A stretch of DNA of 64,000 nucleotides. It comes from Hemerocallis citrina (Eukaryota; Streptophyta; Magnoliopsida; Asparagales; Asphodelaceae). A model generated the notes under the pieces. It was not told where the DNA came from. It was given only the letters and a program-made list of their open reading frames with translations, and made no database searches. Shown here piece after piece: positions 10,644 to 64,000 of the stretch; positions within the stretch are counted from its first letter, which is position 1, and the number at the start of each line of letters is the position of its first letter. Location of the stretch: the NCBI GenBank assembly GCA_017893485.1, contig CM030366.1:51056565-51120564 (forward strand). The letters run 5' to 3'. Both the position numbers and the translations under genes were made by a program.

Positions 10644-11061
10644 GATGTTGTAACCCCTGTTTTTCATTTTATGTATTTTGGGGTGTATTTTTTATTTTTG
10701 TGTATTTTTATCCCCCTTGTATTTTTCGAAACCGCATATTGGATTATTTTCAATATATATTCTTTTTCTTTAATTTTTGAACTCCTTGTGTGTTGTTCGT
10801 CGTTTTTGTTCATTTTCACCATTTTGAGTTCTTTCTCTCATTTTCTTGGCCTCGTTCATTTTTATATATTTTTTGGTGATGTGATAGATTTTGGTGGTGA
10901 TTTACCCAAATTTTGATTTTTGACCCTTAAGGAGATTTTTAGGAGCCATAGAATTCTCTATAAATTGTATCCCAATTAAAACCTACCCAATACCCATTAC
11001 CTATTTGTATACCTATTACTACATATTGATACCCACAACTCATTAACCCACAATTACCCCC

Positions 11062-11070
11062 TATATAAAT
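11062..11070 (+). promoter_or_regulatory. TATA box, 5' LTR
   Basis: TATATAAAT after a C-rich stretch, about 410 bp into the LTR. The same box is at 15251-15260 in the 3' LTR. A C/CT-rich leader follows in both. Confidence 0.5.
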
Positions 11071-13046
11071 ATCCTAAACTCCTTAAACCTAATTATCACC
11101 TCTCCCTCTCAAATACATCCCGGTCTCCCTCTCCTAATTGTACTCTCGGCTCCTTATTTCCCAAACCGACCTACACCTCTCCTTGCATCTACAACCGACC
11201 ACCATTAAACCAAAAATCACCATACAAACCATCCATCCATACATCAAAACCCTACAACCCCTTTCCTCCTTGTGGCCGGCCACCATCCAAAATAGCACCA
11301 CCACCCTCCATATCAACACAAGACCCTCCCTTTGTGGTGTTATTGAAGTGGGTTTTTGCCACTTTATCCATTACATCAAAGGAGTTGGTCGTAAGGCATT
11401 TTAGTTCGTGGGTTCGCTTGGATTTGTGCTTGGAAGGATCTCGCTCGTAGGTTTTGTTCCTAAAGCTTAGTTGCATCGTATTCACTCCATCATAAGGCAA
11501 GTAACTTGTACATAATTTCATTAGGTTGATACAAGTCAAAAAGTTCACACCTAGAATAGTTGGGCCTAGAGACAACCAAAAATTGTATTTTTGTTGATGA
11601 GTTTGTCTCTATTGTGTTGAATTTGGCCATAGAGGACTTATGACATGAAGCTTGATAGGTTAATGCCCTAGATTTCACCCAAACTTGATTTCGTTCGTGT
11701 ATGTGACATATTGCATGTTATGTGTTCGATTGATTGCCCATGTGAAACTTATTAGGCTTGGACATGTTAGAATCCCTCAAACATGATTTTTAGATGATTA
11801 GTAGGTTGTATTTCAAGTTTGATTATGTTTGGATCAATATCGTGGAAGTTATAGTGGTTTTAAGTAGAGGTGTGAAATCTGTATGTTGCAGTCTGTTCTG
11901 TGTTGCTTGCTGTTTTCATCGATCCTAAGGTCTGAATCTCAACTTGGAAATTAAAAGTTAATTGTAGATAATTTTATCTATTTTCAAACCCTACTAGTTT
12001 TACCTGATTTGGAGTTCGTATGACTGAGATATGATAGTTTTGATACAGGTGTGTCGATAGTTTCCTGATTCTGTTTTGTATAGATTTTGTTAACAATTTA
12101 TTTTCAAGAACTAGGCTATACATAATATCTTGGTATAATATTTTGCTCAGTGTTTCCTTATGATACAAGGGACTGTCTAGATTTTTTTTGTATTTTAAAG
12201 ATGAGTTTTATGTAGTGTTTCATGTTCTTTTCTAAATTCATCTTGTGCTGTAATTTGCGTGCTCTCCTATGTTGAACCCAGTTTTCACCCAAATTCCTTA
12301 TGTTTTATGAAAATTATTTGTGAGATATGAAAGTTTTAAAAATCTATCTATTTTCACTTCGTTTTGGTGGAATTGTATTTCGATTCGCTGATTGCGAGAT
12401 ATCCTTGTTTTCGTACAGCAGTGTTGAGAAATTCCAGATTCGTCAAACCATGATTTTGTGTTGCTTCTTATTTTTGATGACTTATCTGTACTTACTGGAA
12501 TATTATGAAACTTGTTATTTTGAGTCTATACCTATAGGGGATTACCCCAGATTTTTCGTGGAATTATTTGATGTATTTTCATGCTGTTTTTATGCTTTTG
12601 AAGTTGTTCCCCTGTTTTCTGGATGAACCAAAAATCTGTGTTCAATTCAGTTTTGAGTTGAGATGTTGTGAACTATTATATGACTTTATTATACTCGTTG
12701 GATGCGTGTGGATGTCTACTTTCCAGATCCATCGACGGATCGTGATTTGCATGCCTATACCTCTTAGAATCACTATTTTAGTACTGCTTAGTCATGCTGT
12801 CCTGATTATGAACCTAAACTATTTTGCTCGTATATGTGAATGTTTGTCATCTATGCTTGTATATTTGTTTCCTGAAACCTAAACCTGATTATAACATGTT
12901 GGTTTGACTCTGATTCATGCTTATACCTGCCTGTTTGAGAATAATAATAAATAATCAAGCCAGAATTTTAATGGGACAGATCAAAGAGTGGATAGTGCAG
13001 AAACGTGTACTCGGAATGAGACTTGTGTTTCCTGTATAACATGCTA

Positions 13047-13170
13047 CGGATAAAGTTTACCGATCAAGTTTACCGATTAAGTTACCGATCAAGTTTACCG
13101 ATCAAGTTTACCGATCAATTTTACCGATCAAGTTAATATTTTGTACCGATCAAGTTTACTGACCAAGTTC
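13047..13170 (+). repeat. 14-bp tandem repeat (taccgatcaagttt) in 5' LTR
   Basis: About eight imperfect units of taccgatcaagttt. The matching array in the 3' LTR is at about 17246-17383, with differing units and order, so it evolved after insertion. Confidence 0.8.
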
Positions 13171-14053
13171 TGTGATTCTGTGAGTACCTGAGTACACTGC
13201 CCTGCATGGTCCCCTATGAAATCTAAAGCGACACTGTTGTGTTGTAGCAACCATGTAGGGTGGGGTGCATGTCGTGCTACCTAGATAGTAATCACACAAG
13301 ACTTAAACTTAATACTTGAACATGATACTTGAATAAGATACCTTCCATGAGACATGCTTGCCTAATAATTGACTACATGATACATGAGACTTGATTACCT
13401 GAGACTTGAATTACATAAACATGATACCTGATACATGATTACACGAAACTTGACACTTGATGCATGTTTATAGGATACTTGTTTACTTAACACTTTTACC
13501 ATGCTAGTTTGTCTAGGTTGACATCATACTTATACCATGTACTAGTTAGTTTCCCCATTCCATGTGCTTGTATCCTACTCTATTTGTGACCTGTGACTTG
13601 CAATTGATGGGTACTTGTGTTTTCTCTTTTCCTCTTTCCTGCATTCGTTGAATTGCAGATTTTGGAGGACAGGTTCCTGAAGGTATTGGCGAGGTGATGT
13701 TTTAGATGCTGGAGATTCTGCTTATATTATTATTTCTTGTAGTTGCTTGAACAATAACTGTATTCATGTATTTGGAATTATTATCTTGTATTTGGGCAAT
13801 GTGATCCAGGAGTATTTGTGTATTTCAGATCATGACTATTTGAGATTAATATATTTTATTTCAAGTATTCTTGTTGGTATTTGGTTTATATGTGCATGTG
13901 GTTGACTTTTCTGGCTTCCGTCTCTGATTATATCTGTGATGTGTTGCAAAGATTTCTTGAAACAGCTTGAGGATGATAATAATCATTCGCTGGGCTTTTG
14001 TTACGTGCTCGTATTCCGTATTTTTGGGAAGCGAGGCGTGACAGAGTTTTTAG

Positions 14054-14070
14054 TGGTATCAGAGCCCAGG
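14054..14070 (+). other. Primer-binding site for initiator tRNA-Met
   Basis: TGGTATCAGAGCC starts 10 nt after the 5' LTR and is complementary to the 3' end of plant initiator tRNA-Met. It then reads CAGG, one extra C compared with perfect complementarity (AGG). Confidence 0.85.
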
Positions 14071-14414
14071 TTTGGCTAATGTATTAGTTGCCTAATATAT
14101 TAGACAAGCTTGGCTCAAACTGGAATCTGCTCATCATTTCACCCACCATGCATGCATAAATGAATCAATTATTATCAACATTGATCTAGATACTAGTCTT
14201 TTTCTTTTCTTTTTGATCCTTTCTTATTCGATTTTGTTGATTCCTTGATTCTTCCGTCTTTTTTTCAGTCGTCCTTTTTGATTGATTTCTTGTTGCGTAT
14301 GAATTCATTCTTTCGTACCCATATCCTTCTGAATTTGGTGCCATTTATTCTCTTTCTATTTTCTGCTTGATACGTCGGTCGGCATCACTGTATGCTATTG
14401 GCAGAGTCTTCCCG

Positions 14415-14469
14415 ATCAGAGTGGGGCAGCGGAAGCATGGTGGGCCCATAACCCACAAGTCCCAGGATC
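14415..14469 (+). pseudogene. 5' three-quarters of initiator tRNA-Met captured in the internal region
   Basis: Reads as tRNA-iMet from its first base: ATCAGAGTGG..., then A-box-like GCAGCGG, then GTGGGCCCATAACCCAC (the whole anticodon arm with CAT anticodon), then GTCCCAGGATC, where it stops inside the T-arm. Against plant tRNA-iMet as I remember it, I count three mismatches in 55 bases. The T-loop, the B box and the 3' acceptor strand are missing, so it cannot be a working tRNA gene. The same insert is in the internal regions at 53214, 58230 and 63287. Confidence 0.85.
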
Positions 14470-14797
14470 ATATTGTTGCTTCTCCTTCCTTGCATTGTTT
14501 TTGTTTCCCCTATCTCTTGCAGTTGTTTTCATCTGTTGACTTGTTGTTTGATCCAATTCTCTCCTGTCTTTTCTCTCCTTGATTTCAGTTCTGCCACTCC
14601 CTTATTGCTTTGCTATCTTGTGTTGATTCTTTCCTTTTGATACTGTTTGCTTCTTTTCTTGCATTCCATTTGATCCCATTGTTATCCATCTTCCTTCTTT
14701 TCCTGGTGTTGCCTTTGCTTTGTTCCTTTCTCTTAGCCCTCTGCTTTGTTGCCCTTCCCCAGTTTGCTGTTGCCTTGTCCTATGTACCGCCTAAGCA

Positions 14798-14836
14798 AAT
14801 TTCGAGGACGAAATTTTATTGTAAGGTGGATAGGAT
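14798..14836 (+). other. Conserved pre-LTR block / polypurine tract
   Basis: TTTCGAGGACGAAATTTT followed by a purine-rich aaggtggatagga directly before the 3' LTR. This block precedes the 3' LTR in Tekay/Del-type elements and marks plus-strand priming. Confidence 0.8.
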
Positions 14837-17800
14837 TGTAACCCCTATTTTTCATTTTATATATTTTGGGTTGTATTTTTCATTTTTGTGTATTTTTATC
14901 TCCCTTGTATTTTTCGGAACCGTATATTGGATTATTTTCAATATATATTCTTTTTCTTTCATTTTTTAACTCCTTGTGTGTTGTTCGTCGTTTTAGTTCG
15001 TTTTCACCATTTTGAGTTCTTTCTCTCATTTTCTTGGCCTCGTTCATTTTTATATTTATTTTGGTGATGTGATGGATTTTGGTGGTGATTTACCCAAATT
15101 TTGATTTTTGATCCTTAAGGATATTTTTAGGAGCCATAGAATTCTCTATAAATTGTATCCCCAATTGAAACCTACCCAATACCCATTACCCATTTGTATA
15201 CCTATTACTACATATTGATACCCACAACCGGTTAACCCACAATTACCCCCTATATAAATATCCTAAACTCCTTAAACCTTAACCCTAAACCTAATTATCA
15301 CCTCTCCCTCTCAAATACATCCCGGTCTCCCTCTCCTAATTGTACTCCTAGCTCCTTCTTTCCCAAACCGACCTACACCTCTCCTTGCATCTACAACCGA
15401 CCACCATTAAACCACAAATCACCATACAAACCATCCATCCATACATCAAAACCCTACATCCCCTTTCCTCCTTGTGGCTGGCCACCATCCAAAACAGCAC
15501 CACCACCCTCCATATCAGCACAAGACCCTCCCTTTGTGGTGTTATTGAAGTGGGTTTTCGCCACTTTATCCATTGCATCAAAGGAGTTGGTCGTAAGGCA
15601 TTTTAGTTCGTGGGTTCACTTGGATTCGTGCTTGGAAGGATCTCGCACGTAGGTTTTGTTCCTAAGGCTTAGTTGCATCGTATTCACTCCATCAGAAGGC
15701 ATTGAACTTGTACATAATTTCATTAAGTTGATACAAGTCAAAAAGTTCACACCTAGAGTAGTTGGGTCTAGAGAGAACCAAAAATTGTATTTTTGTTGAT
15801 GGGTTTGTCTCTATTGTGTTGAATTTGGCCATAGAGGACTTATGACATGAAGCTTGATTGGTTAATGCCCTAGATTTCACCCAAACTTGATTTTGTTCGT
15901 GTATGTGACATATTGTATGTTATGTGCTCGATTGATTGCCCATGTGAGAATTATTTGGCTTGGACATGTTAGAATCCCTCAAACATGATGTTTAGATGAT
16001 TAGTAGGTTGTATTTCAAGTTTGGTTAAGTTTGGATCAATATCGTGGAAGTTATAGTGGTTTTAAGTAGAGGTGTGAAATTTGTATGTTGCAGTCTGTTC
16101 TGTGTTGCTTGCTGTTTTCATCCATCCTAAGGTCCGAATCTCAACTTGGAAATTAAAAGTAAATTGTAGATAATTTTGTCTATTTTCAAACCCTACTGGT
16201 TTTACCTGATTTGGAGTTCGTATGACTGAGATATGATAGTTTTGATACGGGTGTGTCGATAGTTTTCTGATTCTATTTTGTATAGATTTTGTTAACAATT
16301 TATTTTCAAGAACTAGGCTATACATAATATCTTGGTATAATATTTTGCTCAGTATTTTCTTATGATACTAGGGACTACCCAGATTTTTTTTGTATTTTAA
16401 AGATGAGTTTTATGTAGTGTTTCATGTTCTTTTTTAAATTCATCTTGTGCTGTAATTTGTGTGCTCTCCTATGTTGAACCCAGTTTTCACCCAAATTCCT
16501 TATGTTTTATGAAAATTATTTGTGAGATATGAAAATTGGAAAATTTTATTTATTTTCACGTCGTTTTGGCAGAATTGGATTTCGATTGGCTGATTGCGAG
16601 ATATCCTTGTTTTCGTACAGCAGTGTTGAGAAATTCCAAATTCGTCAAACCATATTTTTGTGTTGCTTCTTATTTTTGATGACTTATCTATACTTACTGG
16701 AATATTATGAAACTTGTGATTTTGAGTCTATACTTATAGGGGATTACCCCAGATTTTTCATGGAATTATTTGATGTATTTTCATGCTGTTTTTATGCTTT
16801 TGAAGTTGTTCCCCTGTTTTCTGGCTGAACCAAAAATCTGTGTTCAATTCAGTTTTGAGTTGAGATGTTGTGAACTAGTATATGACTTTATTATACTCGT
16901 TGGATGCGTGTGGATGTATACTTTCCAGATCCATCGACGGATCGTGATTTGCATGCCTGTAGCTCTTAGAATCACTGTTTTAGTACTGCTTAGTCTTGCT
17001 GTCCTGATTATGAACCTGAACTATTTTGCTCGTATATGTGAATGTATATCATCTATGCTTGTATATTTGTTTCCCAGAACCTAAACCTGATTATACCATA
17101 TTGGTTTGACTCCGATTCATGCTTATACCTACCTGTTTGAGAATAATAATAAATAATTAAGCCGGGGTTATAATGGGACAGATCTAGTAGTGGATAGTGC
17201 AGAAACGTGTACTCGGAAGGAGACTTGTGTTTCGTTTATGACATGTTACCGATCAAGTTTACTGATCAAGTTTACCGATTAAGTTACCGATCAAGTTTAC
17301 CAATCAAGTTACCGATCAAGTTTACTGATCAGGTTTACCGATCAAGTTAATATTTTGTTACTGATCAAGTTTACCGACCAAGTTCTGTGATTCTGTGAGT
17401 ACCTGAGTACATTGCCCTGCATGGTCCCCTATGAAATCTAAAGCGAAACTGTTGTGTTGTAGCAACCATATAGGGTGGGGTGCATGTCGTGCTACCTAGA
17501 TAGTAATCACACAAGACTTAAACTTAATACTTGAACATGATACTTGAATAAGATACTTGCCATGAGACTTGATTACCTGATACTTGAATTACATGAAACA
17601 TGATACCTGATACATGATTACACGACACTTGACACTTGATGCATGTTTATAGGATACTTGTTTACTTGACACTTTTACCATGCTAGTCTGTCTAGGTTGA
17701 CATCATACTTATACCATATGCTAGTTAGTTTCCCCATTCCTTGTGCTTGTATCCTACTCTATTTGTGACCTGTGACTTGCAATTGACGGGTACTTGTGTT

Positions 17801-18222
17801 TTCTCTTTTCCTCTTTCCTGCATTCGTTGAATTGCAGATTTTGGAGGACAGGTTCCTGAAGGTATTGGCGAGGTGATGTTTTAGATGCTGGAGATTCTGC
17901 TAATATTATTATTTCTTGTAGTTGCTTGAACAATAACTGTATTCATGTACTTGGAATTATTATCTTGTATTTGGGCGATGTGACCCAGGAGTATTTGTGT
18001 ATTTCAGATCATGACTATTTGTGATTAACATATTTTATTTCAAGTATTCTTGTTGGTATTTGGTTTTTATGTGCATGTGGTTGACTTTTTTGGCTTCCGA
18101 CTCTGATTATATCTGTGATGTGTTGCAAAGATTTCTTGAAACAACTTAAGGATGATAATAATCATTCATTGGGCTTTTGTTACGTGCTCGTATTCCGTAT
18201 TTTTGAAAAGCGGGGCGTGAAA
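14837..18222 (+). repeat. 3' LTR of the 10.6-18.2 kb element
   Basis: 3386 bp, starts TGTAACCCCT. The last bases are GCGTGAAA where the 5' LTR has GCGTGACA, a point change at the terminus. TATA at 15251-15260, tandem array at 17246-17383. Confidence 0.9.
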
Positions 18223-18227
18223 GATGT

Positions 18228-26689: not shown

Positions 26690-27225
26690 AAAGAAAAAGG
26701 ACTACACAAAAGATGGGGAAACTTCTTCTGAATCTCTTCCTCAAGTTCCTAAGTTGACTCACCCAGCGAGTGAGGATTCCAAGCAACTCGAACCAATCTA
26801 ATGACCTTGTTCTTCAAAACCGTCTCCCGTCGGTCCAAGATCGAAACCGGACGGATCTCACAGGACAAATCGGGCTGAACAAACAACTCGGAGTAGTCGA
26901 TAATATGACTTTCATCCCTGATATACCTCATGAGTTTGGAGACATAAAAAACATCATGCACTCTAGATAGAACCGGTGGCAATGCGAGTCTATAGGCTAC
27001 CTTGCCTACTCGGTCCACAATATCAAACGGGCCAATAAACCTAGGAAATAGCTTGCCCCCACCTCCAAACCTGATAACACCCTTCCATGGTGATGCCTTG
27101 AGAAACACATGATCAACCACTTTGAATTCCAACGGCCTCCAATGAAGATCTGCCCATTTCCTTTGTCTGTTCTGAGCCGCCTGTAGATGCTTCCTGATCT
27201 AAGCCATAGCATCAACCGTCCTCGT
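26690..27225 (-). pseudogene. Integrase C-terminal domain and chromodomain-like tail (chromovirus A)
   Basis: Minus-strand reading shows VVDHVFLKASPWKGVIRFG, LFPRFIGPFDIVDRVGKVAY, LPPVLSRVHDVFYVSKLMRY, then ILDRRETVLKNKVIRLVRVA and WNPHSLGEST. This is the integrase C-terminal (GPY/F-like) region plus the short chromodomain-type tail typical of Tekay-like elements; a stop interrupts the usual W-E-E end. Integrated elements use this tail to direct insertion to chromatin. A frameshift separates it from the integrase core. Confidence 0.8.
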
Positions 27226-42503: not shown

Positions 42504-44001
42504 ACACAATGACGCCTTCACCTGTAGTGATATTCCACGCTGCCAGCATGTCGTTGCTGGCCAAACGGTGTAGGTTGACGAAGCGGGAGGTAACAAAGGA
42601 ATGAGTAGAACTGAAGTCAAAAAGAACATGAGCGGGAAAGGAGTGAACTAAGATAACACCTAGAGGAGGTCAAGGAATAAGAATACGAATATGCAAAATG
42701 TATGCAAAAGTGATAAACATGAATGATTAACAATAGAAGAACAACAGAATAGAATTGATAAGAAAGCAAAACAACACAATTATCGGCATACCTGCAACCA
42801 CGCCAATGGCGGTCTCAACATCCTCCACAGTCAGGTTGTAGGCCTGACCATGGCCTCTAGAAGGACCACCTTTAGGAGTGGCTCTCCTCTGATCGAATAT
42901 CTACCTCTGAGGTGGGAGTGGTGGTCTGTCCTGACCACGAGCAAGCGCTCCATGTGGAGCGAAATCTCCAACCGATGCAAGGGGTCAGGTCCTTCGGCAG
43001 TCATGAACCATGTGGTCATTACTTCCACACAGGAGGCACTGACAACTTTCAGCCCTACAATCCTTGCATGTGTGACCAACTCTGTGGCAGTAAGTGCATG
43101 TCTGGTCCACCAGTGGGGCAGTAGGCGAATAGGGTAAAGCTCTAGCTGTCTGGATCTGAACTAGCCTCCGAATAGGTCCTCCAGAAGACCTGGCAGCAAC
43201 GGAGTGCGAATAGACTGCAGAATGACACACTTCCTCTTATGAGCCTGCTCCTGGATTCTAGAAGCATCCAGGATATCCGCATACTATCGGATTCACAGGG
43301 CAGCAAGGTGGTTCTGAATTTCGATATCCAGACCCGACAAGAATCGGCAGTCTCTATCTTCATCATTTGCCACCATGGAAATAGAAAAGCGGCTCAGTCG
43401 GGTAAATTCTGCAGCGTACTCGTCTACGGTCCGACTCTCCTGGTTCAAGAAGATGTTTACTTCAATGTTGATACATTATGAAATAAACAACGAAATTTGC
43501 AAAGATAAACACTATCCGGCGAAACAGGGTTAGCGAGACAAATTGCTGCTCCATTTCATCTTTAGTGACACTAGGAAAGAACTTCGTGGAGATGGCCCAG
43601 GTGATGGGTCGCCCTAGTTGTTCAGTCTCTGCTCACCACCAGATGTGGGTGAGGTCAAAGAGCTGGATGCTTACAACATCCACTCGATCAACATCTGAAA
43701 TCCGCACTACTATCAACAACTACTCAGTCCGAATTAGCCATTGCTCAGCTTCAAGTGGAGTCTCAGTGCACCAGAATTTATCTGGATGTAGCCTCATGAA
43801 ATCCACCATATTACCAGATCTCGGTGGTAGTAAATCGGGTGGAGGTCTAGCGGATTCCCTGTTGGCAGCTTCAAAAGCCACCCTCATCAGCTCATTGTGT
43901 TCGCATTGCATCTGCATCATCTTCTACATCATCTGAGCAACAGTCGGCTCTTCTGACTGATCATCCCTAGTTCGGAATGATGAAGCACCCTTTCTATCCA
44001 T
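42504..44001 (-). pseudogene. gag and protease of chromovirus A, with intron
   Basis: Minus strand from ATG at 44001: MDRKGASSFRTRDD, EEPTVAQMM then a stop (43922), MQMQCEHNELMRVAFEA, FMRLHPDKFWCTETPLEAEQ, then YAAEFTRL-like capsid sequence, then two zinc knuckles (CTYCHRVGHTCKDC and CLLCGSNDHMVHDC) near 43000-43090. After TAIGVVAG comes an intron (42660-42791), then the protease: VILVHSFPAHVLF, with DFSSTHSF at the catalytic site (D-S/T-G expected; D kept, G lost). Gag packages RNA and protease processes the polyprotein. The frame is truncated by the N gap and carries several frameshifts. Confidence 0.85.
42660..42791 (-). other. 132-bp GT-AG intron between gag and protease (element A)
   Basis: Minus strand donor GCAG|gtatgc and acceptor cctctag|GTGTTATC, with a T-rich interior. 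Removing it joins VVAG to VILVHSF in frame. The same intron position is present in the plus-strand relative at 48580-48724. Confidence 0.75.
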
Positions 44002-44125
44002 GGTCTGCAATAAAATCAAACAGTTAGCATCCAAATTATAAGTTGGTTATCAATTATCCATGTGATTCACGTGTTGTACCTATTGATGGGTGAAACCGGT
44101 TAAACCCAAACTAATTAAAATCCAA

Positions 44126-44141
44126 CCTGGCTCTGATACCA
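44126..44141 (-). other. Primer-binding site of chromovirus A
   Basis: Minus strand TGGTATCAGAGCCAGG, a 16-nt match to the complement of plant initiator tRNA-Met 3' end. It starts about 10 nt inside the 5' LTR boundary at 44152. Confidence 0.88.
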
Positions 44142-47168: not shown

Positions 47169-47186
47169 TGGTATCAGAGCCCCAGG
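47169..47186 (+). other. Primer-binding site of chromovirus D
   Basis: TGGTATCAGAGCC then CCAGG (two extra C against the iMet complement), 9 nt after the LTR. Confidence 0.8.
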
Positions 47187-47364
47187 TTTGGATGATATAT
47201 CAGTCAAACTTGACTAACATATAGAGGTTTGGCTTTGACTGATATATTAGTCAGATTTGGGTTTAACCGATTTGACACAACAGTATGTACAACACGTGAA
47301 TCACATGGATAATTGATAGCCAACCTATATCTGGAATCTAATCATTTTATTTCAATTGCAGACC

Positions 47365-48579
47365 ATGGCTAGAAAGGGTGCTTCGTACTCCCGAACTGAG
47401 GATGATCTGTAGGAGGAGCCGACTGTTGCACAGATGATGCAGCAGATGATGCAGATGCAGCGTAAGCACAATGAGCTGATGTGGGTGGCTTTTGAAACTA
47501 CCAACAGGGAACCTACTGTACTGGCACCCGGATTGCTGCCACCAAGACCTGGTAGTGTGGTAGATATCATGAGGCTACATCCAGTTAAATTTTTAGGTAC
47601 CAAGAGTCCGCTTGAAGTCGAGCAATGGCTTATTCGGACCGAGCAGCTGTTGACTGCAGCAAGAATATCGGATGTTGATCGGATGGATGTCATGAGAACC
47701 CAGCTCATTGATCTCGCCCACATCTGGTGGCAAGCTGAGGCTGAACGATTGGGGCGACCCATCACCTGGGCCATCTTCACAGAGAGCTTCTCACGAAGTT
47801 CTTTCCGAGTGTCATTAAATATGAAATGGAACGGCAATTTGTCTTGCTAACCCAGGTTCGTCAGATATTATTGCAATTTTTGTTTTTTATTTCATAATGT
47901 AACAGCGTTAAACTAAGCATCGTCTTGAACCAAGGGAGTCGGACCGTAGACGAGTACGCTGCAGAATTTACCCGACTAAGCTGCATTGCTACTTCCATGG
48001 TGGCAAATGATGAAGATAGAGGTTGTCGTTTCTTGTTGGGACTGGATATTGAGATTCAAGATCGCCTTGCGGCCCTGCAACACCGATCGTATGCGGATAT
48101 CGTGGATGCTGCTAGGATCCAGGAGCAGACTTATAAGAGGAAGTGTGCCATTCTGCAGTCTATTTTGCACTCTGTTGCTGCTAGGTCTTCTGGAGGACCT
48201 ATTCGGAGGCCAGTCTCGACCCCTCCTGCAAGAGCATCGCCCTATCCACCTGCTGCCCCGAGAGTGAACCAGACTTGTGATTACTGCCGCAGGGTTGGAC
48301 ATCTGCGCAATGACTGCAAGTTAGCAAATCACTAATGCCTATTGTGTGGAAGTAATGACCACATGGTTCGTGATTGCTCGAGGAGCAGACCCCTTGCACG
48401 AGTTGGATGTCCCGTTCCATAGGGAGCCCTTGCTCGTGGTAAGGGCGGACCACCAGTCCCACCTCAGAGGCAGGTTTTCGAGCAGAGGAGAGGCGCTCCT
48501 AGAGGAGGTCCTTCTAGAGGTCGTGGTCAGGCCTATAATCTTACAGAGGATGCTGAGACTGCTTTGGGCATTGTTCCAG
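47365..48579 (+). pseudogene. gag of chromovirus D
   Basis: ATG at 47365: MARKGASYSRTEDDL then a stop (TAG, 47410), EEPTVAQMMQQMMQMQRKHN, MRLHPVKFLGTKSPLEVEQW, HIWWQAEAERLGRPITWAIF, a frameshift near 47790, VIKYEMERQFVLLTQ, about 75 unexplained bases, LNQGSRTVDEYAAEFTRL, then zinc knuckles CDYCRRVGHLRNDC and (after a stop) CLLCGSNDHMVRDC-like, and a basic linker to LTEDAETALGIVPG. Two C-X2-C-X4-H-X4-C knuckles bind genomic RNA. Similar throughout to the minus-strand gag at 42.8-44.0 kb, including the ~75-base insertion, so that insertion predates their divergence. Confidence 0.87.
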
Positions 48580-48724: not shown

Positions 48725-49419
48725 GCATTATCTGTAACCCCCGTTTTCCCAAATCCGTATTTTCTGTGTATTATCTGTGTTTGGGTTCTTTATGAAATGT
48801 TTCGTCTCATAAATTCGTTTTATTTCAAATTTATTTTGTATCTCCTGTTAAAATCCATTTCTTTTTATTAATTGTATTTATTGTTATTTTCAAACGATTT
48901 TTATATGGAAGTACAAACCCTATTAATGTTGTTATTATTATTTTTGTTATCAGTATTATTATTATTATTGTTAATTTTATTTTTATCATTATTATTATGA
49001 TTATTGGTATTATTGGTATTATTGTTATTATTATTATTAATAATATTATCCTTGATTTTCTAATTTAAAAATCTATTTCTATTGATAATTGTATTGTGGT
49101 AATTTCAAATAATTCCCATATTATAGTACAAAATATATTTGTTATGTAATCCAACCTTTTATTGGTTATTTTATTCTCTATTGGATTTTAACCCCTAACA
49201 ACCCAAACCCATAATATCCTATACCTGTTTATTAATCCCCAACACACTTCCATCCTATACTACCCTACCCATTTGCAGTCCCCATACCTGAAACCCGTTT
49301 CATATTTTCAGCCGTCATCCTCCTACTCCCCCTAACCCTAAAACTAAAATACCTTTATATATAACCCTACCCTGCTAACCTAAACCCTAGCCTCCTCCTA
49401 CTTTTCTATCTCCCCGTTT

Positions 49420-49780
49420 CCTTGGTCCCCTCCGCTTGCTCGTGCTGCGCTCGCGACCCTGCAGTGCGCCAGCCACCTCGACCCGCAGCTATAGCCCCCG
49501 TCCTATGCAGCGTCACCGGTGCCACCGCAGCCCATTCGCAACCCCTGTCACGACCTCACCTCAGCATCGACTGTAGGATCAGCCAGAGCACCGCCCTCTC
49601 CCTCGGTGACCACTGCCTCGCACCACCCGGTCATCACCCTACCACTCGACGACAGCAGTACTGCACTGTGCTTCCTCCCTGCCGTGTCGTCCTCTCGGCA
49701 ACACAGCCACCTACCTGTGGCCACTGCCCTCGCCGTCACTATCCCTGCTGCGCCGTCGCTTATCGTCGGATCCATGCCTG
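49420..49780 (+). other. GC-rich patch with an open frame in array LTR-A
   Basis: The frame 49422-49904 (160 codons) is matched in LTR-C by 59518-59946 (142 codons), both ending with the peptide FFDHHDHHVPLID. LTR-B has frame breaks (only the tail is open, from 54634). The peptide is Cys/His/Pro-rich and matches no family I know. Absence of stops is partly due to high GC content, so a protein is doubtful. Confidence 0.3.
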
Positions 49781-51759
49781 TGTAGCCCATTGGTGGTTGT
49801 TTTGTGATTGGGTTACTGTTGATCAAAGTGAGTTGATCACTTTGATTTTGGGCCATTGGGTCTTCTTTGATCATCATGATCATCATGTTCCCTTGATTGA
49901 TTGATTCCTTGCCGTCGATCACCCATGATCTTGATCTTTTGATCGCGGCCGTCGATTGCTTGACCCCTTGATCTCGACCGTCGAATTTGCCTGATCATCA
50001 TCATCATCATCATCAGTCTTGATCTGGCCGACTGATCTTATCCGACCATCTTGATCTTGATCTTCGATCTCAGCCGTCCGATTGTGTTTGTGATCTCGAT
50101 CGTTTTCTTCTTGTTCGTGACCAGTTGTTCATCTTGTTCGTGATTCGTTCGTTGTGTTCGTACCCGAGAATCCATTCCCGTTATTATTGCTCTTGCTTTG
50201 CCGTTTTCGTCATCATCTCTCAGGCAAGTAACTTGTATTCTTTTCTTTGTAAAATACAAGTACTAAATACCACCAGTAGTGTAGTTTTGTTCTAGAGATA
50301 ATTTTTGTGTGAAACCGTCTGTTGTATCTTGTCTCTATTCTGTTGACCCGCCTGTAGTTGTCTCACTACACATATGACATGAAATAACTTAGGGATGACC
50401 ACTTCTTGATGATTACATGCATGTTGTTCGTATGATATCGTGTGCTTGATTTGTTGATAGTAGTATAACTTGTTGTAGATTTGTGAAATAACCTACACCA
50501 TGTTACTTGGACATATAGTACACCGTATTTCATGTTTGGTTATGATTTGGATGAGTTTCATGTAAACTAGTTGATTTTGTGCATGAAGAATATTTTCAAT
50601 TTGGTCGATTCCGATTTTTATTCAGTATTTTAGACTCTATTAAGTTCAGTATATTAAAATTATTTGTGGACATTAACGGTAGAGAATTCTGTCTATTTTC
50701 CAACCCTTCTGACAGATCTCTGTTTTGATTTATGAGTTGTGCGTTATGACTATTTTACTATAGTGATGTAGAAACATTCCAGATTTCATTTTATATGAAT
50801 TTTGTGGAATAAACTATTTTTATTTAGATGTCAAAAGTATTATTTTGATCCAATATTTTGCTGAGTATAACTAGACCTGATTGGGATTAACCCTGAATCT
50901 TTGTGGATTTAATTAATGAGTTTTACCAACTATTTTATACTTGCAAATGATAACTATACTAGCAGAATTTCATTGCTGTTCAGTAAAGATACATAATTTC
51001 GACCTGATTCTACTTGCTGTTTGAAAAACCTTTCTGAATATGAAAGTTATCCTATTGTATCTAGTTTATTACCCTTTTGACGGATCTGGATTTCGATTTA
51101 TATTTTGTGAGATATTGTTGTTTTGGTAATGCAGTGATTATGATTACAGATTTATAAAACTTCCTTATCTTGTTGCTCTCTGATTTTACTTGACTATTGT
51201 ATTTATGTTGGAAAATTATGCAACTTGATTTTTTGTTACTAACCATACTAGGTAGTAACCCAAATTTTTTGTGGATTTAATTAGTGAGTTTTCATGCTGT
51301 TTTTCTTTTTATGAATACAAACTTCTTATTTCTGGCTGAACATGTTTTCTGGATTCAAATCTGTTTTAAGACTTGTTTTTGTGAATTACCATATGACTTA
51401 TATATATTTCTTAGATTCGGCTAGGAGTCTATTTTCCAGAGTCTTTGACGGATCCATATATACATTTTTGTAGCAACGGGAATTCCAGATTTAGTTCAGT
51501 AATGTCGTGTTGTCCTGAACTAGAAATTTTATTGTTCTGTCATGTTAAGAGTTGTTTTTCACCTGTACATGTTTATCTTTTAACCTGAGCCTGTTACTTG
51601 TTTATGCTATGTTGTACTTGCTCTGTTTTGTAACACATAATGCCTGTTTGATAATAATAACAAAATAACCAAGCCGGGGTTAAGGGAAAGATTTGGTAGT
51701 GGAAAATATAGAAATTTGTACTCAGAAGGGAGATCGTGTTTCCCATTTTATGTTTGATT

Positions 51760-52000
51760 CATGTTGATACATGAACCTATTGATGCATGGACCTGTTGGT
51801 TAGTGTACCTGTTACCTATTTATGCACGGACCTGTTGATTCGTGTACCTGTCACCTGTTGAGGCATGGACCTGTTGGGTTGTGTACCTGTATCCTATCGA
51901 TGCATGGACCTGTTGGTTCATGTACTTGTTGATTCATGAACCTGTCGATGCATTAATCTAATGATTCGTGTACCTATCTGATTCATGAACCTGTTCATGT
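51760..52000 (+). repeat. 39-40-bp tandem repeat in array LTR-A
   Basis: Units of tgatgcatggacctgttggt followed by tcgtgtacctgttacctgt; about five units here. Equivalent arrays are at about 56790-56990 (LTR-B) and 61835-62045 (LTR-C), with different unit numbers and order. Confidence 0.8.
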
Positions 52001-52785
52001 TTTCCGTTTTCCTGATCCCTGAGTACACGGCTCTATGGACACCACTACGATATCTAAATACAAACTTGTTTGAATTTAGCAACTATGTGGTAAAAGGATG
52101 GACGCATGAAGTGCCACTTAGATAATAATAAATACAAGACTTGACTTGACACGACATAACTTGACATGCCTGACACCTGTTACATGATACCTGTTACATG
52201 CTTGCCTGATACATGTTACCAACCTGTTAGCGCATTATGTTATTTGATTCTGTTTATGCTTCATGCTAGTTGTTCTATTTTGTTGCCATGTATATTCCAT
52301 GCTTTGTAGTTTATTCTTTTCCATGTACTCGTGCCTGCACTAAAAGCGGCTGTAACTTGCATTGACAGGAGTTTTGTTTTCTTTTCCTCTTCTTGCAATT
52401 TATTCAATTGCAGATCAGGGTGATCAACTGCCCGATGGAGTAGGTGATCTGAGATTCTAGTTGCTGGAGATTTTTCTATATCTATTTATTTTTCTTGTTG
52501 CTTATCTTGAACAATTGTACTTGGTTACTTAGATTATTTGTATTTGGAAAACGTGACCCAAGTTTATTGACTTGTTCAGATCTAGTTTATTTGAGATTAA
52601 TATAATTTTGTTTCAAGTAAATCCTGTTGGTATTTTGATTCATATATGCATGCTTGGTTGGCTTCTCCTGTTTCCTACTCTGATTATTCCTGTGAAATGT
52701 TGTAAAGATCCTAACAGCTTATAGATGATGAAAATCATTCGCACGGCTTAGTCATGTATCTCTCTTCGGAAAGCGGGGTGTGACA

Positions 52786-53801
52786 AGGTTTTTAGCGGTA
52801 TCAGAGCCCAGGTTAGGCTAATATATTAGCTTGACTGATATATTGGACAAGTTTGGCTCGATTTGTGATCGGCACAACAGTACACAGACCATGCATGCAT
52901 GAATGAATTAATAATCAACAATTAATCCGGATACTAGTCTTATTCCATTCATTTTGATCACTTCTTATTCAATCTCTTAATTCCTTGATTCTTCCATCTT
53001 TTTCAGTCGTCCTCTTTGATTGATTTCTTCTTGGGTATGAATTCATCCTTTCCATACCCATATTTCTTGATTCTGGTGTCATCCATTCTTTTCTTCATGC
53101 TTGGTTCGTTGATTGGAATTGCTGGATCTACTTCGACATTTTAGCGGCTTGGATCATCACCAGGAGACGAAGTGTCATCCTTTGCACCAAGATGTAGATG
53201 CAGAGTCTTCCCGATCAAAGTAGCTCAGCGAAAGCGTTGTTAACCCATAACCCACAGGTCCCAGGATTCTCTTGTTGTTTCTCCTTCCCTGTATTGTTTG
53301 CTTCTTTCTATTCCTTGTACTCGTCTTCATCCGTTGACTCATTGGCTGGTCTAACTCTTCCTTGTCCATCCTTTCTTCGATTCCAGCTCTATCTGTTTCT
53401 TCATCTCTTTGCCTTACTATCTTGTAAGTCTTGTGTTGTTTCTTCTTTATTTTTGATACCGATTACTTCCTTCTTGCATTCCATTTTACCATCATGCACC
53501 CATTTATTATTTGATTCAATTCCTCCCTATTCATTCTCTCTTTGATTCTAGTTCTGCCTACTCCCTATCTTACTTTGTTATCTTGTATTGATTCTTTCCA
53601 TTTGATACTGTTTATTTTCTTTCATACATTTCATTTGACCTCATTGTTATCTTCTTTCTCTTTTTCTGGTGTTGCCACTGTTTTGTTCCATTCCCTAGTT
53701 CTCTGTTTTATTACCCTCCCCCAAGTTTGCTTTTGCCATGTTATATGTACCGCATAATCAAATTTTGATGACGAAATTTTGTTGTAAGGTCGGTAGGTTT
53801 T
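52786..53801 (+). other. Array internal region 1 (1016 bp, non-coding)
   Basis: PBS at 52796 reads CGGTATCAGAGCCC (first T changed to C). Pyrimidine-rich sequence, the iMet-like insert at 53214-53267, more CT-rich DNA, then the degenerate pre-LTR block (TTTTGATGACGAAATTTT). Open frames are hydrophobic by-products of T/C richness. It aligns with the 793-bp internal region at 14044-14836, with about 130 extra bases before the tRNA insert. Confidence 0.85.
53214..53267 (+). pseudogene. Initiator tRNA-Met 5' fragment in internal region 1
   Basis: ATCAAAGTAGCTCAGCGAAAGCG, slightly more decayed, then ...AACCCATAACCCACAGGTC and CCAGGAT. The anticodon arm is weakened (gttaaCCCATAAcccac), consistent with age. 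Confidence 0.75.
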
Positions 53802-56800
53802 GTAACCCCTGTTTCCCCAAATCTGTATTTCCTGTGTATTATCTGAGTTTGGGTACTTTATGAAATTTTTCGTTTCTTAAATTCATTTAATTTCAAATTT
53901 ATTTTGTATCACCTATTAAAATCCATTTCTTTTCATTAATTGTATTTATAGTTATTTTCAAACAGTTTTTATATGGTAGTACAAACCCTATTAATGATGT
54001 TATTATTATTATTACTGTTAATTTTATTTTTATCATTATTATTATAATTATCGGTATTATTGGTATTATTGTTATTATTATTATTAATATTATTAGCCTT
54101 GATTTTTAATTTAAAAAACTATTTCTATTGATAATTGTGTTGTAGTTATTTCAAATAATTTCCATATTAGAGTATAAAATATATTTGTTATGTAATCCTA
54201 CCTTTTATTGGTTATTTTATTTTCTATTCGATTTTAACCCCTAACAACCCAAACCCATAATATTAATCCCCAACCCACTTCCATCCTATACTACCCTACC
54301 CATTTGCAATCCCCATACCCGAAACCCATTTCACTTTCCAGCCTTCATCCTCCTACTCCCCCTAACCCTAAAACTAAAATACCTACGTATATAACCCTAC
54401 CCTGCTAACCTAAACCCTAGCCACCTCCCGCTCATCTATCTCTCCCTTCTCGTTGGTCACCTCCGCCTGCTCGCGCCGCCCTCGCGACCCCGCAGTGCGC
54501 CAGCCACCTCGACCCGCAACTGCAGCCCCCGTCCTCCACAGCGTCACTGGCACCACCGTAGCCCAGTAGCGACCCCTGTCGTGACCTCACCTCGGCAGCG
54601 ACTATAGGATCAGCCAGAGCACCGCCCTCTCCCTTGGTGACCACTGCCTCATGCCACCCAGTCATCGCCCTGCCACTTGACGACAACAGCACTGCACCAT
54701 GCTTCCTCCCTGCCGTGCTGTCCTCTCGGCGATGCAGCCACCCACCTGTGGCCACCGCCCTTACCGTCACTGTCCCCGCTGTGCCATTGCCAGCCGTTGG
54801 ATCCATGCCTGTGCAGCCCCTTGGTGGTTGCTGTGTGATTAGGTGGCTGTTGATCACTTCGATTTTGGGACGTCGGATCTTCTTTGATCATCATGATCAT
54901 CATGTCCCCTTGATCGATTGATTCGTGGCCATCGATCACCCGTGATCTTGATCTCTTGATCGTGGCCATCGATTGCTGGATCCCTTGATCTCGACCGTCA
55001 GATCTGCTTGATCATCATCATCTTCATCATTAGTCTTGATCTGGCCATCCAATCTGATCCGATCATCTTGATCTTGATCTTCGATCTCAGCCGTCCGATT
55101 GTGTTCGTGATCTCGATCGTCATTATCTTGTTCGCAATCAGTTTTTCATCTTGTTCGTGATCATCTCGTTCGTGATTCGTTCATTGTGTTCGTGTCCGGG
55201 AATTCGTTCCCGTTATTCTTGCTCTTGCTTCGTCGTCTCTCAGACAAGTAACTTGAATTCTTTTCTTTGTGTAATACAAGTACAAATTACTGTTTGTAGT
55301 ATAGTTGTGTTCTAGAGAAAATTCTTGTGTGAAATGCCCTGTTGTATCTTGTCTCTATTGTGTTGACCCGCCCGTAGTTGTCTCACTACACACATGACAT
55401 GAAATAACTTAGGGATGACCACTTCTTGATGTTTACATGCATGTTGTTCGTATGATATCGTGTGCTTGATGTGTTGATAGTAGTATAACTTGTTGTAGAC
55501 TTGTGAAATATCCTATACCATGTTCCTCTGACATCTAGTACACCATATTTCATATTTGGTTATGATTTGGATGAGTTTCATGTGAACTAGTTTATTTTAT
55601 GCATGAAGGATATTTTTGGTTTTTTCGATTTCCATTTTTATTCAGTATTTTGGACCCTATTAAGTTCAGTATATTAAAATTATTTGTGAATATGGACTTT
55701 AGAGAATTATATCTATTTTTCAACCATTCTAACAGATCTCAGTTTCGATTTATGAGTTGCGAGTTATGACTATTTTACTACAATGGGGTAGGACAATTTC
55801 AGATTTCGTTTTATATGAATTTTGTGGAGTAAACTATTTTTATTCTGATGTTAAAAGTATTATTTTGATCCAATATTTTGCTGAGTATAACTAGACCAGA
55901 TTGGGATTAACCTTGAAATTTTGTGGATTTAATTAATGAGTTTTACCAACTATTTTATACTTGCAAATAAAATCTATACTAGCATAATTTCCTGCTGTTC
56001 AGTAAAGATACATAATTTCGACGTGATTCTACTTGCTTTTTGAAAAATCTTTCTGAATATGAAAGTTAGCCTATTTTATCTAGTTTATAACTCTTTTGAC
56101 GGATCTGGATTTCGATTTACATTTTGTGAGATATTGCTGTTTTGGTACTGCAATGTTTATGATTCCAAATTTACAAAACTGCCGTATCTTGTTGCTTTCT
56201 GATTTTACTTATTGCCGTATTCTAATTATGTTGGAAAACTATGAAACTTTATTTTCTATTACTGAACATACTGGGAAATACCCCAGGTTTTTCGTGGATT
56301 TAATTAGTGAGTTTTCATGCTATTTTCCTGTTTATGAATACAAATTTCTGATTTTTGGCTGAACACGGGAATCTGTTTTAAGACTTATTTTTGTGAATTA
56401 CCATATGACTTATATATATTTCTGAATTCGGCTGGGAGTCTATTTTCTATATTCTTTGACGGATCCAGATTTGCATTTTTGTAGCAATGAGAATTCCATA
56501 TTTAGTGCAGTACTGTTGTGCAGTTCTGAACTTGAAATTTCATCGTTCTGTCCTGTTAAGAGTTGTATTTCACCTGTACACATTTATCTTTTAACCTGAG
56601 ACTGTTACTTGTTTATGCTTTGTTATACTTTCTCTGTTTTGTAACACATACGTGCCTATTTGATAATAATAACAAAATAACCAAGTCGGGGTTAAGGGAA
56701 AGATCTAGTAGTGGAAAATATAGAAATGTGTACTTAGAAGGGGGCCCGTGTTTCCCATTTTATCTTTGATTCATGTTGATATATGAACCTGTTGATGCAT

Positions 56801-57813
56801 GGACCTGTTGATTCGTATACTTGTTACCTGTTGATGCACGGACCTGTTGGTTCATGTACCTATTACCTGTTAATGCATGGACCTGTTGGTTCGCGTACCT
56901 GTTACCTGTTTATGCATGGACCTGTTGGTTCGTATACCTGTTGATTCATGAACCTGTTGATGCATGAATCGGATGATTCGTGTACCTATCTGATTCATGA
57001 ACTTGTTCATGTTTCCTGTTTTCCTGATCCCTGAGTAAATGGCCCTATGGACTCCACTACGAAATCTAAACGCAAACTTTTTTGAATATAGCAACCGTGT
57101 GCTAAAAGGATGGACGCATGAAGTACTACCGAGATAGTAATAAAGACAAGACTTGACTTGACCTGACATAACATGACATGCTTGGCACCTATTACATGAT
57201 ACCTGTTACATGCTTGCCTGTTACGTGTAACCTGTAACCTGTTAGCACATTATGTTATTTGATTCTCTTCATGATTCATGCTAGTTGTTCTATTTTGTTG
57301 CCATGTCTATTCCATGCTATGTAGTTTATTCTTTCCCATGTACTTGTGCCTGCACTACAAGCGGTCCGTAACTTGTATTGACGGGAGTTTTGTTTTCTTT
57401 TTCTCTTCCTACAATTTATTCAGTTGCAGATCAGGGTGATCAGCTGCCCAATAGAGTAGGTGATCTGAGATTCTAGTTGCTGGGGATTTTATTATATCTA
57501 TTTATTTTTCTTGTTGCTTATCTTGAACAATTGGACTTGGTTACTTGGATTATTTGTATTTGGGTAATGTGACCTAGGACTATTGACTTGATCAGATCTG
57601 GTTTATTTGAGATTATTATAATTTTGTTTCAATTAAATCCTGTTGGTATTTTGATTCATATATGCATGCTTGGTTGGCTTCTCTTGTTTTCTACTCTGAT
57701 TATTCCTGTGAAAAGTTGTAAAGATCCTGACAGCTTATGAATGATGAAAATCATTCGCTGGGCTTAGTCAATTATCCGCATTCCGTATCTCTTTTGGGGA
57801 GCGGGATGTGACA
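53802..57813 (+). repeat. Array LTR-B
   Basis: 4012 bp; starts TGTAACCCCTG, ends GGGATGTGACA. TATATAA at 54388-54394; (ATT)n near 53995-54100. Confidence 0.9.
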
Positions 57814-58816
57814 AAGTCTTTAGTGGTATCAGAGCACAGATTTGGCTAATGTATTAGCTTGACTGATATATTAGGCAAGCTAAGCTCGATCTGGGATCGG
57901 CACAACAGTACACAGACCATGCATGCATGAATGAATTAATAATCAATATTGATCTGGATACTAGTCTTATTTCATTCATTTTGAACCCTTCTTATTCAAA
58001 CCCTTGATTCCTTGGTTCTTTCATCTTTTTCAGTCGTCCTCTTTGATTGATTTCTTCTTGGGTATGAATTCATTCTTTTTGTACCCATATTCCTTGATTC
58101 TGGTGTCATCCATTTTTTTCTTCTTGCTTGGTTCATTGATTGGCATTGCTGGATCTATCCCATATTCCTTGATCACCCGGAGAAGAAGTGTCGTCCTTTT
58201 CTCCAAGATGTGCATGAAGAGTCTTCAAGATCAGAGTAGCGCAACGAAAGTGTTGTGAGCCCATAACCAACAAGTCCCAGGATTCTCTTGTTGTTTCTCC
58301 TTCCTTGCATTGTTTGCTTCTTTCTATCCCTTGTACTCGTCTTCATCCGTTGACTCATTGGCTGGTCTAACTCTTCCTTGTCCATCCTTTCTTCGATTCC
58401 AGCTCTATCTATTTCTTCATCTCTTTGCCCTGTTATCTTGTAAGTTTTGTGTTGTTTCTTCTTCATTTTTTATACCGATTACTTCCTTCTTGCATTTCAT
58501 TTTACCATCATGCACCCATTTATTAATTGATTCAATTCCTCCCTATTCATTATCTCTTTGATTCCAGTCCATCCTACTCCCTATCTTGCTTTGTTATCTT
58601 GCGTTGATTCTTTCCCTTTGATACAGTTTATTTTCTTTCATGCATTCCATTTGACCTCATTGTTATCTTCTTCCTCTTTTTCTGGTGTTCCCACTGTTTT
58701 GTTCCTTTCCTTAGTTCTCTGTTTTGTTACCCTCCCCCAAGTTTGCTTTTGCCTTGTCCTATATACCGCCTAATCAAATTTCGTGGACGGAATTTTGTTG
58801 TAAGGTGGGTAGGATT
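57814..58816 (+). other. Array internal region 2 (1003 bp, non-coding)
   Basis: PBS at 57824 (TGGTATCAGAGC then ACAG instead of CCAG). iMet-like insert at 58230-58283. Pre-LTR block TTTCGTGGACGGAATTTT before LTR-C. Confidence 0.85.
58230..58283 (+). pseudogene. Initiator tRNA-Met 5' fragment in internal region 2
   Basis: ATCAGAGTAGCGCAACGAAAG, then TGTGAGCCCATAACCAACAAG and TCCCAGGAT; the same start and end points as the other copies. Confidence 0.78.
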
Positions 58817-61800: not shown

Positions 61801-62859
61801 TTTCCCATTTTATGTTTGATTCATGTTCATACATGAACCTGTTGATGCACAGACCTGTTGGTTTGTGTACCTATTACCTGTTGATGCACTGCTTTGTTGG
61901 TTCGTGTACCTGTTACCTATTGATGCATGGACCTGTTGGTTCGTGTACATATTACTTGTTGATGCATGGACCTGATGGTTCGTGTACCTGTTGATTCATG
62001 AACCTGTTGATGCATGAATCAGATGATTTGTGTACCTGTCTGATTCATGAACCTGTTGCTGTTTCCTATTTTCCTGATCCCTGAGTACACGTCCCTATGG
62101 GCTCCACTAAGAAATCTAAACGCAAACTTGTTTGAATGTAGCAACAGTGTGCCAAAAGGATGGATGCATGAAGTGCTACCTGGATAGTAATAAGCACAAG
62201 ACTTGACTTGACATGACATAACTTGACATGCCTGACACCTGTTACATAATACTTGTTGCATGCTTGCCTGATACATGTTACCTTTAACCTGTTAGCACAT
62301 TATGTTATTTGATTCTATTCATGATTCATGCTAGTTGTTTTATTTTGTTGCCGTGTCTACTGCATGCTATGTAGTTTATTCTTTCCTATGTACTTGTGCC
62401 TGCAATATAAGCGGCCCGTAAATTGCATTGACGGGAGTTTTGTTTTCTTTTCCTCTTCCTGCAAATTATTCAATTGCAGATTAGTGTGATCAGCTGCCCA
62501 ATGGAGTAGGGGATCTGAGATTCTAGTTACTGGAGATTTTTCTATATCTATTTATTTTCTTGTTGCTTATCTTCAACAATTGTACTTGGTTACTTGGATT
62601 ATTTGTATTTGGAAAATGTTACCCAGGACTATTGACTTGTTCAGATGTAATTTATTTGAGATTAATATAATTTTGTTTCAAGTAAATCCTGTTAATATTT
62701 TGATTCATATATGCATACTTGGTTGGCTTCTACTTCCTGCTCTGATTATTCCTGTGAAAGATTGTAAAGATCCTGACGGCTTATGGGTGATGAAAATCAT
62801 TTGCTGGGCTTAGTTACGTATCCGTATTCCGTATCTCTTTTAGGAAGCGGGGTGTAACA
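58817..62859 (+). repeat. Array LTR-C
   Basis: 4043 bp; starts TGTAACCCTAT, ends GGGGTGTAACA (G to A in the usual TGTGACA). TATATATATA at 59404-59413; (ATT)n near 59040-59125; GC-rich open frame 59518-59946. Confidence 0.9.
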
Positions 62860-63873: not shown

Positions 63874-64000
63874 TGTAACCCCTGTTTCCTCAAATCCGTA
63901 TTTTCTGTGTATTATCTGAGTTTGGGTTCTTTATGAAATTTTTCATTTCCTAAATTCGATTTATTTCAAATTTATTTTGTATCTCCTGTTAAAATTCATT
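63874..64000 (+). repeat. Array LTR-D (start only)
   Basis: TGTAACCCCTGTTTCCTC..., the first 127 bp of a fourth LTR, cut by the window end. Confidence 0.88.

Follow-up and report, generated by a model that had tools for sequence, protein, structure and literature searches.

The PBS of an LTR retrotransposon is rewritten in each cycle from the 3' end of the primer tRNA, and by the common view a primer tRNA contributes no more than about 18 nt to such an element. LARD elements possess kilobase-long LTRs and an internal region without intact coding domains, and we know of none with a captured tRNA, while TRIM elements have short LTRs and a total length under about 1 kb. Cassandra, a non-autonomous plant LTR element, has a small-RNA sequence, namely 5S rRNA, in its LTR (PMC10886601) and is reported to occur in long tandem arrays (PMC7215508). 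Helenus (TRIMp3) is also a non-autonomous LTR element, and many of its copies hold a tRNA-like sequence; this sequence lies in the LTR, includes a putative Pol III promoter made up of boxes A and B, is not complementary to the element's own PBS and is suggested by the author to be a SINE insertion (Kojima 2024, PMC10886601). Retrozymes, non-autonomous plant elements with a tRNA-Met PBS that are likely mobilised by Ty3/gypsy elements, carry a functional RNA motif as well, but theirs are hammerhead ribozymes located in the LTR, and the elements are 1-1.5 kb long (PMC11722881). In Ty3 itself, which is primed by the initiator tRNA-Met (iMet), a bipartite PBS uses the tRNA beyond its 3' end, with the tRNA arms pairing with the element RNA (PMC5371799).

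Here we describe LTR elements from a 64,000-nt stretch of the Hemerocallis citrina genome (contig CM030366.1; the window in the following) that hold the body of iMet, their own primer tRNA, in the internal region. Unlike in Ty3, it is the element which holds the tRNA sequence, in sense orientation. The insert differs from the tRNA-like sequence of Helenus in being internal, in having box B cut, as it ends at nt 54-55 inside the T-loop, and in being the primer tRNA itself; matches to the tRNA body were found in the internal regions of the window and in none of its LTRs. From Cassandra the elements differ by an iMet tRNA in the internal region, and no 5S rRNA reached the Rfam gathering score within the window. 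With LARD elements they share kilobase LTRs (3.4 kb in element A, about 4 kb in family B), a non-coding internal region, a PBS and a PPT, but the internal region is shorter here with 0.8-1.0 kb (793 nt in A, about 1000 nt in B); the total span of element A, 7.6 kb, lies outside the TRIM range. Judged by its parts, the family belongs with LARD-like non-autonomous derivatives and is set apart by a captured segment of a new kind. The claim in a preliminary description of this DNA that no described family carries the body of its own primer tRNA internally agrees with our search of the open-access literature (subscription journals lay mostly outside its scope), in which we found no such element and in which Helenus and Cassandra came nearest.

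Structure of the elements and identity of the insert

The genome from which the window derives (3.78 Gb) contains 25 exact 72-nt copies of the plant iMet sequence among the 40 scored of 80 candidates, showing that this sequence is that of the host gene. The insert of element A corresponds to iMet nt 1-55 and agrees with it at 52/55 sites (3 mismatches, E 6e-20, blastn in the window), so that the reported presence of about 55 nt of the 5' part of iMet in the internal region is borne out. It begins exactly at the 5' end of the mature tRNA, runs in the tRNA sense about 360 nt from the PBS, and its end at nt 54-55 falls within the T-loop, two nt ahead of the canonical A58 (linear position 57). The family B inserts at 63287-63340 and 58230-58283 show 5 and 8 mismatches in 54 nt, respectively (blastn), and in the first copy 53244-53267, a part of that insert, matches iMet at 24/24 positions (nt 31-54). 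The similarity to the host iMet is far above chance. Neither ARAGORN nor Rfam called the fragment a tRNA, which is no surprise given that it lacks the 3' half of the T arm, and no Rfam family reached its gathering score within the window. The PBS of element A is complementary to the 3' end of the same tRNA over 13 contiguous nt (iMet nt 63-75), as had been claimed, and the PBS word TGGTATCAGAG is found at 14054, 57824 and 62870 and with one base changed at 52797. Thus the insert is the body of the elements' own primer tRNA, internal to non-autonomous LTR elements (Table 1).

Table 1. Features of element A, family B and an autonomous-type neighbour in the window.
Feature	Position	Strand	Remarks
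Target-site duplication GATGT, element A	left 10644-10648, right 18223-18227		adjoins LTR ends TGTAACCCC...GGCGTGACA/GGCGTGAAA
5' LTR, element A	10649-14043	+	3395 nt; self-alignment 93.5%
PBS, element A	14054-14066	+	13 contiguous nt complementary to iMet nt 63-75 (blastn)
Stable hairpin overlapping and 3' of PBS, element A	14062-14116	+	fold
Protease-gene remnant, decayed and shortened by deletion in element A	14277-14414	+	aligns to class-2/B flanks that match the autonomous protease
Insert, element A	14415-14469	+	5' acceptor strand, D arm, anticodon arm, variable loop, T-stem 5' strand
Non-coding stretch downstream of the insert, 77% pyrimidine, element A	14470-14790	+	composition
PPT region CAAATTTCGAGGACGAAATTTTATT	14796-14820	+	pattern and blastn; resembles autonomous elements in the window
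3' LTR, element A	14837-18222	+	3386 nt; self-alignment
Family B, LTRs and internal regions repeated in tandem	48733-64000	+	self-alignment
Family B internal regions	52786-53800, 57814-58815, 62860-63873	+	alignment
Insert, first B internal region	53214-53267	+	alignment; nt 31-54 exact
Insert, second B internal region	58230-58283	+	46/54 to iMet
Insert, third B internal region	63287-63340	+	49/54 to iMet
Family B protease remnant, ending ...LAAWMFTRRRSVVLCSKMCIQSLPD at the insert	63097-63286	+	translation
Protease piece of autonomous-type neighbour, relative of the upstream flank	42504-42669	-	Pfam RVP_2, 2.1e-8
PBS, same autonomous-type neighbour	44124-44141	-	18/18 to iMet nt 58-75

Element A is a non-autonomous LTR retrotransposon with two LTRs, a PBS, a PPT near 14800 and the target-site duplication GATGT, and its LTR pair has diverged by a K2P distance of 0.0488. 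The region around its PBS (14046-14120) folds at -29.2 kcal/mol with a z-score of -4.95 and is a candidate leader structure. The bearers of the other inserts had been called a second LTR family; other elements do hold the insert, but family B is a diverged relative of element A with pieces of 65-83% identity in LTR and internal region. Similarly, the word gagtcttcccg said to precede every insert is present at 14415, 53214 and 63287, while 58230 reads gagtcttcaag. Common ancestry of the insert in both families, one of the possibilities raised beforehand, is shown by the flanks that they have in common. The family B array has a period of about 5 kb and at least three units, and in both families the non-coding stretch 3' of the insert consists of 76-77% pyrimidines (14470-14790 and 63341-63820).

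Two autonomous-type elements in opposite orientation, at 42504-44141 (minus strand) and 47169-48555 (plus strand), carry gag-like or protease pieces and an iMet PBS, and their internal parts match each other as inverted repeats. PBS and leader of the insert-bearing elements are 86-88% identical to the autonomous-type element at 47169, and their PPT block is 73-78% identical to elements at 26697 and 36589. By PBS, leader, PPT and protease flank, the insert-bearing elements can be classified as relatives of Ty3/gypsy elements, which we take to be Tekay-like, with these as putative helpers for mobilisation in trans.

Flanks and origin of the insert

The upstream flank of the insert is collinear with a protease gene. 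In tblastn the family B flank matches the autonomous protease piece with 37% identity over 41 residues (E 1e-4), and the class-2 flank is joined to the same piece. The length of the remnant varies by subfamily, class 2 ending at AWNIT and B extending to the CKQS region, and in the D-type copies (L100, L105, L109) it reaches the linker between protease and RT. Alignments of D-type to autonomous linkers scored 75.0-85.7 in 5/6 comparisons and 62.7 in the sixth, against a maximum of 66.5 for 100 shuffles of L109 aligned to one autonomous copy. Two of the three D-type copies end in CTTCCC(C)GATC, similar to CCTCCCGATCGAGAGG in the autonomous L181, the site in L180 being less similar. The autonomous protease pieces continue past the class-2 and B junction points in 16/16 cases, and the protease/RT-linker pieces past the linker site in 2/2, all without a tRNA match at E 0.1. 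Downstream of the insert it is mainly the PPT in which the sequence resembles the window's autonomous-type elements, and no protease or pol match was found there within the window. No Pfam hit was obtained in P0002, and the decayed protease piece is the only coding trace noticed in the internal regions. Since a decayed protease/RT-linker gene forms the upstream flank, the tRNA piece lies on one border of a deletion in which most of pol was lost. An initial reading of CCCGATCAGAG as a C-P-I-R motif of the protease was dropped, the autonomous copies having QSPLLIGG there.

We favour, with a probability of roughly 0.6, a capture by RT bridging on the free 5' part of the primer tRNA, the piece later being kept near the tRNA sequence. 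The ancestor would have been an iMet-primed Ty3/gypsy-type element on its way to losing most of its coding region. During that deletion, RT engaged in minus-strand synthesis would have departed from the genomic RNA close to its 3' end and carried on along the primer tRNA, copying nt 55 to nt 1, before it ran off at the 5' end of the tRNA and resumed in the protease/RT-linker region, so that the tRNA piece would be filler at the edge of the pol deletion. Since the last 18 nt of the tRNA are held in the PBS duplex and A58 is methylated, nt 1-57 would be usable as template. The order of the jumps is one that we infer, in particular the first jump, as the data contain no uninserted relative for the 3' junction. 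Strand transfer had already been proposed for the capture and gives the best origin, but the ATCAGAG common to PBS and tRNA 5' end does not mark the landing site; the 5' junction lies in the protease/RT-linker gene, with a short match of its own.

Two variants of this idea were given up. If RT had simply read on through the tRNA during plus-strand transfer, an antisense body would adjoin the PBS, in conflict with the orientation and distance of the insert. The class-2 junction, where insert nt 1 directly follows ...TCACC, is no longer needed as a second run-off from the tRNA 5' end, because an autonomous copy has CACCACAGGTGGCG there, similar to CACCATCAGAGTGGCG, and an ordinary microhomology deletion explains it equally well.

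Insertion by another route, as a tRNA-headed SINE or a truncated tRNA retropseudogene, appears improbable. Retropseudogenes in the form of 5'-complete, 3'-truncated tRNA pieces are known, and the insert resembles them in this respect, but whereas a SINE has a tRNA head with boxes A and B, a body, a tail and a target-site duplication of its own, the insert is a 55-nt piece with box B cut, and no SINE body or A-tail was seen (both judged by eye). Moreover, its 5' flank is protease-derived, its 3' flank is without protease or pol match in the window, and both flanks are element sequence common to the subfamilies. A Pol III promoter within the insert was rejected as well because of the cut box B.

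Spread through the genome and conservation

For a survey of the genome we used a 31-place pattern in which iMet nt 26-54 are followed by C or T at nt 55 and by a non-G at nt 56, the last of which excludes intact iMet genes. It gave 1206 mismatch-free hits (620 plus 586) and the reversed control gave none genome-wide; thus the matches are not due to chance. When A-type loci were picked by their upstream flank alone, the insert was present in 30/30 (the best 30 of 3304 candidates) with 83.6-100% identity to iMet, and class-2 loci picked in the same way had it in 39/39 (the best of 1943 candidates, the query copy uncounted), both sets being the closest matches to one query each and hence relatives of the queries and no random sample. 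The insert, first noted at this one locus, is therefore not confined to it. In local alignment of the 30 A copies it starts at nt 1 in 29 and at nt 2 in one, and in none of the 30 does it extend beyond nt 55. A family B query found 40 places, and of 14 segments of 75 nt inspected, three showed the insert, two its first bases at the edge, and the remaining nine were too short to reach it; all 14 were kept out of the conservation counts. A query built on the leader with the PBS gave no hits, the words in it being too frequent.

For the comparison of insert and flanks, 30 further copies first picked with the insert in the query were used only in the tree and the column counts, mixed with flank-picked ones. 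The tree sample comprised 60 loci less 5 duplicates, that is 55 distinct A-type copies. In this mixed sample 7/55 insert columns and 298/589 flank columns had a minor count of at least 4, and by a stricter measure of shared changes on the tree these were 3/55 and 152/589, the tree being built from the flanks, which lowers change counts at flank sites. Among the 69 flank-picked copies, ungrouped diversity per column was 0.111 in the insert and 0.204 downstream (p 0.018), and 6/54 against 26/81 columns had a minor count of at least 10; the base composition of insert and flank differs.

Four subfamilies cover 63 of the 69 flank-picked copies, with 6 left out. Minority bases per cell amounted to 0.050, 0.041, 0.075 and 0.046 in the insert and to 0.059, 0.043, 0.037 and 0.052 downstream, which indicates comparable decay of the two regions in dead copies; the exception is subfamily C2a, where the load in the insert is twice the downstream value. 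Fixed differences between subfamilies numbered 0-1/54 in the insert and 4-18/81 downstream in a first test (p 1.4e-4 to 0.16), whose subfamilies rested on those very downstream columns, making it partly circular and biased toward fixed differences there; the majority-state differences of 3.6% in the insert and 20.6% in the flank likewise come from groups drawn on the same columns. We therefore split the downstream columns into halves, clustering the subfamilies on one and testing them on the other. In one direction 0-1/54 insert sites and 4-7/40 downstream sites showed fixed differences (p 0.09, 0.035, 0.008), and in the other 0-1/54 and 3-11/41 (p 0.33, 0.003, 0.0002), so that 3/6 pairs, which are not independent, reach p <0.01. 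By these held-out differences the insert has diverged less between lineages than its flanks, the comparison for which the preliminary description had called.

A neutral passenger, captured once and seemingly conserved through young lineages or the way in which subfamilies were drawn, is rather unlikely in view of the held-out test and of the majority-state differences, the latter with the circularity just mentioned. It would account for the one position and common flanks of the insert and for the similar decay of insert and flank in dead copies, and with copies grouped by upstream class alone no difference was seen (0/54 fixed in the insert, 1/81 downstream, p 1.0). Grouping on the insert itself also gave no difference (2/54 and 8/81, p 1.0). 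Among the copies L061-L090 and L111-L149, those of class 2 fall into two downstream types, one of them shared with subfamily A1, so that recombination has taken place near or in the insert.

The commonest base equals the tRNA base at 55/55 sites in A-type and at 54/55 in class-2 copies, the exception being nt 10 with T in 19/39 copies. The best reading of the sequence comparisons is that replicating lineages kept the insert nearer to the tRNA sequence than the flanks, and that either renewed copying or selection may have been the keeper.

Maintenance of the insert

Variants other than C>T and G>A are commonest at insert nt 10 (19/69), 43 (12/69), 25 (canonical 26; 11/67) and 41 (7/69). The most variable Gs outside CG in the flank-picked copies are G10 (22/69) and G25 (13/67), followed by one at 8/69; G9 (5/68), G45 (3/69) and G52 (5/69) vary too, G9 no more than other Gs. 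The modifications of yeast iMet include m1G9, m2G10 and m22G26 (PMC10602860), and in tRNA sequencing of fission yeast RT misreads m1G9 and m22G26, m2G10 not being among the misread sites in the part of that study cited here (PMC4697793). G10T and G25T thus coincide with positions methylated in yeast iMet, a map which may differ in this plant. On the flank tree G25T requires 15 changes for 20 copies, a degree of homoplasy that only 1/21 comparable transversions in the flanks exceeded. Three of four lineage variants fall on the three methylated Gs, with a chance of 1.7e-4 in a comparison that was framed post hoc and includes the family B variant G9A. The scattered G25T and the variants at methylated Gs fit recopying from the mature tRNA, but an A>G change at nt 43 (canonical 44) is fixed in 10/10 copies of subfamily A2 (among L065-L083) and speaks against frequent renewal; the ordinary variability of G9 and the absence of m2G10 from the misread sites count against recopying as well.

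As keeper we tentatively rank first repeated template switches to the tRNA within the 55 homologous nt. Selection on the RNA ranks after it and may be almost as likely: folded into D and anticodon hairpins or bound by a tRNA-binding protein, the fragment would serve packaging, primer capture or dimer formation, and replicating lineages without it would fail. The lower divergence between lineages together with the comparable decay of dead copies speaks for it, and so does the participation of the 5' end of the Ty3 primer tRNA in dimerisation of the initiation complex (PMC5371799), but the 12-nt palindrome of Ty3 is absent from the plant tRNA. The insert also folds no better than shuffles (z -0.62, -0.65 and +0.69; +1.79 with flanks), for which reason selection on structure alone was rejected, and the acceptor and T-stem 5' strands, unpaired and without partner in the insert, are conserved as much as the stems.

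Two further functions have less in their favour. A role as RNA mobility tag, with tRNA-Met and the pyrimidine-rich stretch carrying element RNA to meristem or meiotic tissue, is quite unlikely and would follow by analogy from mRNAs that become graft-mobile by fusion to tRNA-Met, once into meiotic tissue, and from poly-CU motifs that act similarly, the 3' neighbour of the insert being 76-77% pyrimidine. However, according to the same review, the meiotic case had full-length tRNA-Met and many tRNA-like motifs fail to move mRNA (PMC8047152), and the pyrimidine bias may be incidental. Least probable of all is a decoy for 3' tRNA fragments that otherwise block the PBS. The insert and the 3' 22 nt of iMet are predicted to refold as a split cloverleaf with a gain of 13.6 kcal/mol, matched by 1/200 shuffled inserts, but the PBS gains about twice as much (27.3) with the same fragment.

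If renewal from the tRNA is indeed the keeper, the insert might even be a second host-templated segment besides the PBS, written anew again and again from the free 5' portion of the primer tRNA, although we regard this as doubtful. Nearly the whole primer tRNA would then conceivably be kept current, with nt 1-55 in sense and nt 58-75, as in the autonomous PBS, in antisense.

In summary, most of a tRNA body was captured by these elements, spread to more than 1000 near-exact copies and stayed host-like through the divergence of subfamilies. The elements document a natural case of strand transfer to the primer and show how large deletion derivatives form, and they offer a testable case for either continual rewriting from the host tRNA or an RNA function of a tRNA sequence in a retroelement.
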